8,383 nucleotides of DNA from Caldisericota bacterium (GTDB taxonomy: Bacteria; Caldisericota; JANLFM01): the NCBI GenBank assembly GCA_024655865.1, contig JANLFM010000020.1:16582-24964 (forward strand), in the 5' to 3' direction. The notes under the pieces are model-generated. The model saw only the letters and a list, made by a program, of their open reading frames with translations. It was not told the DNA's origin and searched no databases. Position numbers and translations under genes: made by a program. Positions 1,333 through 7,583 of this stretch are shown here, piece after piece; position 1 is the first letter of the stretch; every line of letters begins with the position of its first letter.

Positions 1333-1371
1333 CAAAAAACCGGCTCGCTCAAAAAATCCTTGCGGCCGGTT
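1333..1371 (-). terminator. Intrinsic terminator in the leader of the adhesin gene (riboswitch expression platform)
   Basis: Read on the minus strand, AACCGGCCGC (1371-1362) pairs with GCG-A-GCCGGTT (1348-1338). This gives 7 plus 3 base pairs around one bulged A, with a 13-base loop. A run of six T (1339-1334) follows. The hairpin lies between the aptamer and the ribosome binding site of the adhesin gene, so it can stop transcription before the coding region. Its 5' arm is the last ten bases of the c-di-GMP-II aptamer, so the folded aptamer and the terminator exclude each other. Confidence 0.82.
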
Positions 1372-1432
1372 GCACCTCAAGCTCCACCCCTCTTGGTGCC
1401 CAAATTATTCAGAGAGGGTTCCTCGCTTCCGC
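1362..1432 (-). ncRNA. c-di-GMP-II riboswitch aptamer
   Basis: Read on the minus strand, the element matches the class II c-di-GMP aptamer as I know it from Clostridium. It begins GCGGAA, has the conserved AATTTGGGCAC, and ends GTGCAACCGGCCGC. GCGG (1432-1429) pairs with CCGC (1365-1362) as P1. GCACCAAG pairs with CTT-GA-GGTGC as the inner hairpin. CCCTCT upstream can pair with AGAGGG in the loop of that hairpin, which is the pseudoknot expected for this class; the pairing is kept although the bases differ from the Clostridium example. The 3' end overlaps the terminator at 1333-1371, so ligand binding should prevent termination and switch the downstream adhesin gene on. The direction of control is inferred from the overlap. 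Confidence 0.9.
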
Positions 1433-1590
1433 TTTATCTAACTGCTCCTACATATTCCCTCCTTTTTGAAAATAAACACAAACAGTGAGCATTCTATGCC
1501 CTGCATATACCAGAGAAATTTTTGACCACCCCAGAAGAGGGTTTGATTGTCGTTGGTTTTCACTCAAATCAATCCAGTATATTTTTTATA

Positions 1591-2113: not shown

Positions 2114-3244
2114 CTATCTTGTGCCAAAGCACACCTCCAGATACAGCCAGTTCCCATCGCTCCAGAAACCTATTCCCACCGAGGTCCAGTTGGGATTCAT
2201 GATGTTGTCCCTGTGGGTGGGGGAGTTCATAAAGGAATTGTGAATGGAGGAAAGAAGCGCCTCCGTGGTGAAGGAGCCGATGTTGTTCACGCGGGCCAGG
2301 TTCTCGCCTACAAAAGTGAACCCCTGATCGAAGAGGACTTTTGCCCTTTCCTGAAAGCTTCCGGAGATCGGGGAAACGTGGGAGAAGAACTCGTTTGTCC
2401 CCATCTCAGTGGCGTACTTCTGGGCGAAGTCAGCCAGAGTGGAATCCCATTCCAGGCTGTTCAATCCGGCATTGGCCCTTTCCTTATTGATTAGACCCAG
2501 GAGAAAAGTTGCCTTTTCGTCCAGAGCGATCGAGGCCGTCTGCCCAGCAACCTCTACAGAGGAAAAGAGCGCAGGCCGAACCTTTTCCAGCATCCTTTCC
2601 AAGAAAGCCGCCACTTCCTGGCGCTCACAGGCCTGGTCAGCGAACTGGTAGCTGAGGTCCCAGTAAGGTTCATTTTCCCTGATTACACCGTTCTTAAGCG
2701 CAGCCGCTACTGTCCCGGTGGCCCAGGAAGAAGGCGGGATTGGATAGGGCCAAACCTCTTCCTTCCAGCCGGCGATTCTTGCCAGAACTGCTAAGGCCTG
2801 AGCTCTGGTTACCGGTTCCTGGGGTCTGAAGGTTCCATCAGGGAACCCCGTAATCCATCCCATCACTTGAGCCCCAGAAATGTAGCGGGAAGCCCAGAAA
2901 TCCTGAGAGACGTCCTTGAAAGAAGGGGGGCTTTCCGAGGGAGAGGCAAAAGAGGAGACCACCATCTTGGCGAATTCCGCTCTGGAGACAGGATTTCCGG
3001 GGCGGAAAGTGCCATCGGGGAAACCGGAGATTATCCCTACTTGTGCCAGCTTGAGAATCTCATCTCTAGCCCAAGAGGAACCGATGTCGCTAAACTGAGG
3101 GGCATTTTGACCTAAAACGGATACAACTGAATGGGAAAAAGATAAAAAAATAATAACTCCTATGAGGGTTATCACTAAAATTTTCTTGATAAACCCCGTA
3201 GAGTTGATGAAAGCTCTATTTAGCGCTTGCTTCGCTCCTACCAC
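2114..3244 (-). CDS. Secreted S-layer-homology protein with C-terminal CAP (SCP/PR1) domain
   Basis: This is a 376-residue exported protein. The hydrophobic signal segment is at about residues 22-42, after a basic end FIKK. Three SLH repeats follow: about 51-99 (GFPDGTFRPG, SRAEFAKMV), 109-155 (GFPDGTFRPQ, TRAQALAVL) and a more divergent one at 170-222. SLH repeats normally bind pyruvylated secondary cell-wall polymer, so the protein should sit on the cell wall. Residues 246-376 form a CAP domain of the YkwD type. It has LINKERANAGLNSLEWD, FFSHVSP (His289), VGENLA (Glu314) and SPTHRDNIMNPNW (His344), the His/Glu set that lines the CAP cavity. The biochemical role of bacterial CAP domains is unsettled. 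I chose the GTG at 3244: AGGAG lies 9 bases upstream, and a promoter -10 box at 3278-3283 places the only upstream in-frame start (TTG, 3277) outside the transcript. The gene appears to be transcribed on its own and is divergent from thpR. Confidence 0.93.
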   Translation of the reverse strand: MVGAKQALNRAFINSTGFIKKILVITLIGVIIFLSFSHSVVSVLGQNAPQFSDIGSSWARDEILKLAQVGIISGFPDGTFRPGNPVSRAEFAKMVVSSFASPSESPPSFKDVSQDFWASRYISGAQVMGWITGFPDGTFRPQEPVTRAQALAVLARIAGWKEEVWPYPIPPSSWATGTVAAALKNGVIRENEPYWDLSYQFADQACERQEVAAFLERMLEKVRPALFSSVEVAGQTASIALDEKATFLLGLINKERANAGLNSLEWDSTLADFAQKYATEMGTNEFFSHVSPISGSFQERAKVLFDQGFTFVGENLARVNNIGSFTTEALLSSIHNSFMNSPTHRDNIMNPNWTSVGIGFWSDGNWLYLEVCFGTR

Positions 3245-3253
3245 TTCTCTTCG

Positions 3254-3258
3254 CTCCT
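3254..3258 (-). promoter_or_regulatory. Ribosome binding site fixing the GTG start of the SLH-CAP gene
   Basis: AGGAG on the minus strand ends 9 bases before the GTG at 3244. No comparable site precedes the TTG at 3277, so this site supports the shorter protein. Confidence 0.7.
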
Positions 3259-3277
3259 GCCCTTTTTGGGCAACCAA

Positions 3278-3286
3278 ATTATAACA
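3278..3286 (-). promoter_or_regulatory. Extended -10 promoter of the SLH-CAP gene
   Basis: TGTTATAAT on the minus strand is an exact TATAAT preceded by TGn, the extended -10 form. No good -35 box lies 17 bases upstream, which is common for extended -10 promoters. Transcription would start near 3271, giving a leader of about 27 bases that contains the AGGAG site. Confidence 0.6.
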
Positions 3287-3502
3287 TAAAGTTAAATTTT
3301 TTGCTTCTATTTATAAAAACAATTTGCATTTCCAAAATATTTAAAAAGAAAAAGTTAAAGTTACGTCCGGATTCACTATAAAAACTAAGAGGATTTGGCT
3401 ATACTCCAACCATGAGACGAATCCAAAAACCAAACTCCTGCTAATAAAATTATCCAGAAACGCTCTAATTATAGAAATCGATTCTAAAATAAAGAAAAGA
3501 TC

Positions 3503-6053: not shown

Positions 6054-7583
6054 ATGGACATTTTATGGGTTTTTGTTGGACTCGTCCTTGGCATTGGACT
6101 AGGATATCTTCTTTTTGATTTTCTCTCCCGCCGCAAATTAGGAAAGGCTCGAGAGAGTGCGGAGAAGATTATTCAGGAGGCCAGAAAAGAAGCCGAAGCT
6201 AAAAAGAAAGAGGCCTTGATTGAAGCCAAAGATGAGGCATTTCGTTTAAAAAGCGAAGCGGAAAGGGAAATAAGGGAAAGACGCGCTGAAATCCAGCGCC
6301 TGGAAAAGAGAGTGCTCCAGAAGGAATCAATTTTGGATAGGCGCTTGGAGAACCTGGAAAGGCGTGAACGTAATATAAATTCCCGCGAACAGGAAATTAA
6401 TCAACTGCGGGAAACGCTGGTGAAACAAATTGAGGCTGAGAAGAAGGAGCTGGAAAGGATTTCCGGCATCACTCAGGACCAGGCCAGGGAGATCCTCCTC
6501 AAAAAGACGGAAGAGGAATATCGCCATGATCTGGCCAAGAGAATGAAGGAATTGGAGGACGAGGTCCGGGAGGAGGCAGAATCCAGGGCCAGGGATATCC
6601 TGATCTCTGCCCTGCAGAGGACAGCAGTAGATCACGCCACTGAAGCCACAGTCTCTGTGGTTCCCATTCCTTCCGACGATATGAAAGGAAGGATTATTGG
6701 AAGAGAGGGGCGCAACATTCGCGCTTTCGAGACCATCACCGGAGTAGACGTGGTAATCGATGATACTCCTGAAGCCGTAACCCTTTCAGCCTTCGATCCC
6801 GTAAGGCGAGAGGTAGCCCGAATAGCGTTGGAAAAATTGATCATGGACGGAAGAATTCATCCTGCCAGAATTGAGGAAATGGTAGAGAAAGCCCAGAAAG
6901 AAGTGGATGAGCGCATAAAGGAGGAGGGCGAAAGGGCTATTATGGAGACCTCAGTCCGCGGTCTGCACCCTGATCTGGTGAAGATGCTGGGTCGCCTTTA
7001 CTATCGGACGAGTTATGGCCAAAATGTCCTTCAACATTCTATTGAAGTGGCACACCTTGCTGGCCTCATTGCCGCTGAACTTAAACTGGATGCAGGGATT
7101 GCCGCGCGGGCCGGACTCCTGCACGATATCGGCAAAGCCTTAAGTCACGAGTATCAGGGATCCCACGCTGTTGTGGGAGCTGACCTTTTACGCAAGTACA
7201 ATGAGCCCGAGGACGTTATTCATGCGGTTGCCGCTCACCATGGAGATGTGGAGCAGAAGACTGTGTACCCTGTGCTGATCCAGTTAGCCGACACCATTTC
7301 CGCTGCTCGTCCGGGAGCGAGAAGGGAAAGCCTGGAGACTTACATCAAGCGTCTTGAGTCCCTGGAGTCCATCGCTGACTCGTTCCCTGGGGTGGAAAAA
7401 GCTTATGCCATCCAGGCTGGCAGGGAGATCCGCATCATGGTCAAGCCGGATCAGATTGACGACGTGTCTGCAGTGAAATTAGCTCACGACATCACCAAAA
7501 AGGTGGAGCAGGAAATGGTCTATCCCGGTCAAATCAAGGTAACAGTAATCAGGGAAGTCCGCGCGGTGGACTACGCTAAATAA
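6054..7583 (+). CDS. rny: Ribonuclease Y
   Basis: The product is a 509-residue membrane-anchored endoribonuclease that starts mRNA decay in many Gram-positive bacteria. One N-terminal membrane helix lies at about 3-22 ([19 protein letters not shown]). A long charged coiled coil runs from about 27 to 180, and a KH RNA-binding domain at about 200-270 has [15 protein letters not shown]. The HD domain at about 320-420 has [12 protein letters not shown] (His328), LLHDIGKA (His357, Asp358), AVAAHHGD and [16 protein letters not shown], the metal-binding and catalytic set of RNase Y. Length and order match the family (about 520 residues). I prefer the ATG at 6054: the one at 6045 directly abuts the Shine-Dalgarno-like AAGGGG (6039-6044), while 6054 lies 9 bases from it. 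A hairpin (6024-6049) covers this site. ymdB follows with no gap. Confidence 0.97.

Follow-up and report, generated by a model that had tools for sequence, protein, structure and literature searches.

A predicted c-di-GMP-II ON riboswitch in front of a SpaA/LPVTG surface protein gene in Caldisericota

The locus, its surface protein gene and partner genes

The stretch of Caldisericota bacterium DNA analysed here (the window, 8,383 nucleotides) carries on its minus strand, in order of transcription, promoter-like hexamers, a structured leader and the N-terminal part of a SpaA-domain surface protein gene (3-1295, ATG at 1295-1293; open reading frames and Pfam); all window features below lie on that strand. 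A promoter scan gives a -35-like hexamer TTGACA (1614-1619), and ATTGACAT stands at the same place in the sister species, Caldisericota bacterium A05DMB09 (MAG, contig JANLFL010000002.1). After a 17-nt spacer follows the -10-like hexamer TAGAGT (1591-1596; TATAGT in the sister), which was recognized by consensus match only. Downstream lie a c-di-GMP-II riboswitch aptamer (1355-1439, including its weak outer P1), an intrinsic terminator hairpin (1338-1371), and a GGAGG ribosome-binding site (1306-1310). Between promoter and aptamer, at 1505-1560, the block CAAACCCTC..TGGGGTGGTCAAAAATTT has an almost identical counterpart in the sister species. The leader block GGGGTGGTCAAAAATTT was considered as a repeated insertion-sequence end and rejected, as it occurs a single time in the genome. 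The product of the neighbouring gene (2114-3277) is a secreted protein that combines two SLH domains with a YkwD-like CAP domain.

The part of the surface protein gene inside the window comprises 432 codons and matches Pfam SpaA with 64.6 bits, which upholds the claim of a secreted SpaA-type surface protein made in an earlier reading of the sequence alone (the first-pass annotation). The window start adjoins an N gap of this gene, and such gaps fall in the repetitive SpaA region in both members of the genus (L003 ~6436-6550 and L123 ~3200-3300). Across the gap, and so outside the window, 627 further residues contain six SpaA stretches (320 bits, Pfam) and end in LPVTG, a hydrophobic segment and a basic tail (...ALPVTGVPISYLFGIGGILLILGGVLFLVLKKSKKEDF), an anchor that goes beyond what had been claimed. 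The two gene pieces, separated by the N gap, presumably form one frame. With its N-terminal hydrophobic signal segment, SpaA domains and LPXTG-type end the protein has the make-up of a sortase substrate; its score against Pfam Gram_pos_anchor is 18.4 bits, slightly below the cut-off of 20. Because of its SpaA domains it is likely a member of COG4932.

Does the genome encode the enzymes that such a protein and such a switch would need? It holds one sortase gene (PF04203, E 2.2e-26, at G000:C11:114001-114378), and the sister's lies at G001:C11:241615-241992. Two of the 54 phylum genomes, the window species and its sister, have a sortase, and the same two hold the adhesin; this shared confinement speaks for their working as a pair and points to an acquisition in the genus, likely a joint one. 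The genome also has six HD_5 matches and encodes three GGDEF proteins whose motifs (GGEEF, GGEEF and GGDEF) are intact, and a search of it for an EAL domain gave no match.

The aptamer and its overlap with the terminator

A cmscan search matches RF01786 (c-di-GMP-II) to 1439-1355 over model positions 1-84 of 84, with 49.9 bits and an E value of 2.4e-10. The class that had been named from the sequence alone, with a covariance-model search proposed as its check, is thus confirmed by a full-length match, although the score lies 3.6 bits under the Rfam gathering threshold of 53.5 bits. A scan of the window at gathering level gives no entry at all, since a default scan misses any site below this curated cut-off, which filters matches cautiously and does not stand for any feature of the structure. 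When the models of the clan were compared on this site RF01786 scored best, and we regard the aptamer as a confirmed c-di-GMP-II member. A second, degenerate aptamer was sought in 1280-1560 at E values up to 10, and none was found; an ncr1175 match with E 7.5 and 13 bits, where the cut-off is 60, was dismissed as a chance overlap with the terminator. Two RF01786 sites, this one and one on contig C2 (55.5 bits), lie in the genome, which comprises 1.82 Mb on 63 contigs.

P1, P2 and the pseudoknot can all be found in the window aptamer, whose position n corresponds to window coordinate 1440-n. In the cmscan alignment P1 pairs GCGG (1429-1432) with CCGC (1365-1362), four good pairs only; P2 is AGC/GCU, P3 is CCCUCU/AGAGGG, and the pseudoknot joins GCACC (1399-1395) to GGUGC (1376-1372). 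Directly after the pseudoknot strand comes AACCG (1371-1367), which is A69-G73, the conserved ligand-contact nucleotides, all of them consensus letters in our conservation table. The c-di-GMP contacts in structure 3Q3Z include A69, A70, C71, C72 and G73 (PMC7288161).

The terminator reads AACCGGCCGC-N13-GCGAGCCGGUU followed by a U tract, UUUUGUUUUU (U4GU5, 1337-1328); its 5' arm is 1371-1362 and its 3' arm, with one bulged A, is 1348-1338. The hairpin has a predicted energy of -15.7 kcal/mol compared with a mean of -7.2 in mononucleotide shuffles, of which 6 in 1000 were as low. Its 5' arm is aptamer nucleotides 69-78, which include the contacts A69-G73 and the P1 3' strand. The first-pass annotation had rightly taken 1371-1362 as the 5' strand of the terminator and had called all of it the P1 3' strand as well, but only 1365-1362 belong to P1 and 1371-1367 are ligand contacts, so the terminator takes in more of the aptamer than was stated there, and the overlap gains in weight as evidence. 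Since the 5' arm lies inside the ligand-binding core, the bound aptamer and the terminator are mutually exclusive, and an ON switch is predicted, in agreement with the geometry originally proposed. A plain secondary-structure fold of the whole leader, which ignores pseudoknot and ligand, has a stability z of -1.2; this value is not unusual, and it is uninformative because the fold leaves out the pseudoknot.

The aptamer on contig C2 overlaps its terminator in the same way (AAACCGACCUC...GGGUCGGUUUUUU): the sequence there reads ...GUGAAACCGACCUCAAAAGGGUCGGUUUUUU, and the last strand of the aptamer is the first strand of the terminator. The gene behind it encodes a secreted repeat protein.

Conservation in the sister species and across the phylum

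Upstream of the orthologous adhesin the sister species carries two complete modules of c-di-GMP-II aptamer and terminator, one behind the other (L123:1330-1414 and 1502-1586, plus strand), where the window species has one. The two modules share an exact 103-nt repeat, and their aptamers score 61.9 and 64.3 bits against RF01786. The orthologous adhesin is 73% identical over the part inside the window and has the same C-terminus (LPVTG, hydrophobic segment and basic tail), and in both species the gene adjoins the same genes, namely those for the CAP/SLH protein, thpR, recA, recX, rny and ymdB. Between the two species the aptamers agree at 62 of 84 positions (74%), all five pseudoknot pairs are conserved, and one of these is changed on both sides (A43-U66 as against G43-C66).

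For covariation we aligned 36 aptamers, 35 of them from the phylum and one from a more distant genome. The pseudoknot helix is 98.9% paired, with double-sided changes in all five of its pairs. Over the structure as a whole the covariation score comes to 0.467, compared with 0.226 in shuffles and 0.11-0.20 when the structure is slid along the alignment, except for the +1 slide, which reaches 0.466 but with fewer cells paired (56.5% as against 74.3%). P3 was left out as evidence because MAFFT misplaces it (45% paired). The first pseudoknot pair, aptamer positions 41-68 (columns 45 and 76 of alignment A1), lies beside the ligand contacts and is G-C, U-A or A-U across Caldisericota. The LPVTG anchor, the sortase, the GGDEF enzymes, the sister's tandem switch and this covariation all strengthen the original reading of the locus.

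Among 101 genomes searched, 21 have c-di-GMP-II matches. Type IV pilin genes stand behind 15 of the loci in the phylum (recognized by a GF(T/S)LIE motif, two of them checked with Pfam N_methyl), and six of these 15 pilin-leader aptamers score 27-32 bits only. Such weak RF01786 matches (L144, L145, L146, L147, L148 and L149) come from six genomes of one genus, and since all six precede a type IV pilin gene the Rfam cut-off seems to miss real members; judged from their context, these aptamers are probably genuine. Other targets in the phylum are DUF11/SLH/SpaA surface proteins, M6 peptidases and an HD-domain signalling protein. Ahead of M6-type peptidase genes, two of which were checked with Pfam, the aptamers are tandem (L117:6057-6263 on the minus strand, L118, L119, L121:187-369 and L124), with a U run directly after each P1. 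At L117 a stretch GCUACUG...GCCCAAAU beside the ribosome-binding site complements the pseudoknot strands, and the sequence suggests that this switch may use a translational or otherwise unusual platform. On balance we favour, with some reserve, the view that in this non-Clostridia phylum c-di-GMP-II switches govern an attachment regulon of general scope, made up of type IV pilins, a SpaA/LPXTG adhesin, proteins of S-layer type and M6 peptidases. In one genus a sortase and its adhesin partner, gained by horizontal transfer, would have come under this control, with module number varying between one and two in sister species.

Departures from consensus, the proposed switch and its known relatives

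The window aptamer reads U61-G62-A63 (1379-1377), where nearly all other aptamers have (A/G)(G/A)U, and thus lacks the conserved A61 and U63. Position 61 is A in 30 and G in 5 of the 36 aptamers, A61 not being invariant in the family, and position 63 is U in 35 of them; at position 18 the window aptamer has G, one of three that do, with U in 22 and A in 11. The lower RF01786 score is due, at least in part, to these three changes. We take window position 61 to be position 61 of 3Q3Z, by matching the listed contact letters by eye to the sequence of that structure. There A61 is a listed ligand contact (PMC7288161).

Have the changes at 61 and 63 then weakened or abolished ligand binding, leaving the terminator as a fixed attenuator while the sister keeps two working copies? 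The loss of the listed contact A61, the replacement of an almost universal U63 and a score of 49.9 bits against the sister's 61.9 and 64.3 all speak for such decay. However, A69, A70, C71, C72, G73, G39-G40, the P2 core, P1 and the five pseudoknot pairs are all retained, one pseudoknot pair has been kept through a double change relative to the sister, and a decaying aptamer would not be expected to retain its pairings with 26% of its positions changed; the change at position 18, moreover, falls at a site that is freely variable in the phylum. We therefore think decay unlikely, though it is the most serious of the alternatives. The changes at 61 and 63, both in the ligand site or close to it, could instead mark a variant that reads another nucleotide, since Rfam has variant sub-families of the c-di-GMP-II clan (compare GAG and GCG; named in PMC12452182). 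Against a changed specificity stand the preference of the site for RF01786 over the other clan models, the canonical A69, A70 and G73, the wholly canonical positions 61-63 of the sister's ortholog and the GGDEF enzymes encoded in the genome, and we consider it very improbable. Least probable of all is an OFF switch in which ligand raises termination: other expression platforms do occur among some class II switches, but nothing specific favours one here, the position of the terminator 5' arm within the ligand-binding core means that the bound fold and the terminator cannot coexist, and the same overlap is seen again in the contig C2 aptamer and in the aptamers of the sister species.

The preferred reading is thus that 1439-1328 (minus strand) is a c-di-GMP-II transcriptional ON riboswitch for the SpaA/LPVTG surface protein gene, to which we give a probability of about 0.83. 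In this model, when ligand is absent the AACCGGCCGC/GCGAGCCGGUU hairpin and U tract would form and the polymerase would stop ahead of the coding region. When c-di-GMP is bound, nucleotides 69-78 would sit in the binding pocket and P1, the hairpin would be blocked, and the polymerase would continue into the surface protein gene. The one sortase of the genome would presumably join this protein to the cell surface, and the protein would serve in adhesion, so that high c-di-GMP would switch on surface attachment.

Among the papers searched we found no report that joins Caldisericota or Caldisericum with riboswitches or c-di-GMP. The suggestion that the pairing of this aptamer class with such a protein might be undescribed is not supported, as it is preceded in Paraclostridium (PMC9481103) and by C. 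difficile CD2831 and CD3246 (PMC11477304, PMC4591827). A c-di-GMP-II switch before a sortase-anchored surface protein is already known in Clostridia; what is new is the different phylum, and the novelty is modest.

The class II switches of C. difficile, which govern CD2831, CD3246 and the type IV pilin operon, are transcriptional ON switches with one translational exception (PMC11477304), and c-di-GMP control of sortase substrates in that species is shown in PMC4591827. CD2831 (collagen-binding, an SrtB substrate) and CD3246 share with the window a class II aptamer, a sortase-anchored adhesin and ON control (PMC11477304, PMC4591827); their adhesin domains differ from those of the Caldisericota protein, and the platform of CD3246 is a group I ribozyme, unlike that of the window. 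The pilin operon switch (PMC11477304) is paralleled by the many phylum aptamers before pilins, not by the window gene. A 2022 survey lists 59 c-di-GMP-II doublets and 9 triplets, most of them before a COG4932 surface-anchor gene in Paraclostridium (PMC9481103). These have the same aptamer class and a surface-anchored protein as target, as here, and the doublets resemble the tandem of the sister species, whereas the window species has a single module and the phylum is different. An ON switch for attachment of a kind known from Clostridia would in this way extend to the uncultured phylum Caldisericota, where the window species with one module and its sister with two before the orthologous gene offer a natural pair on the effect of a second switch in series.
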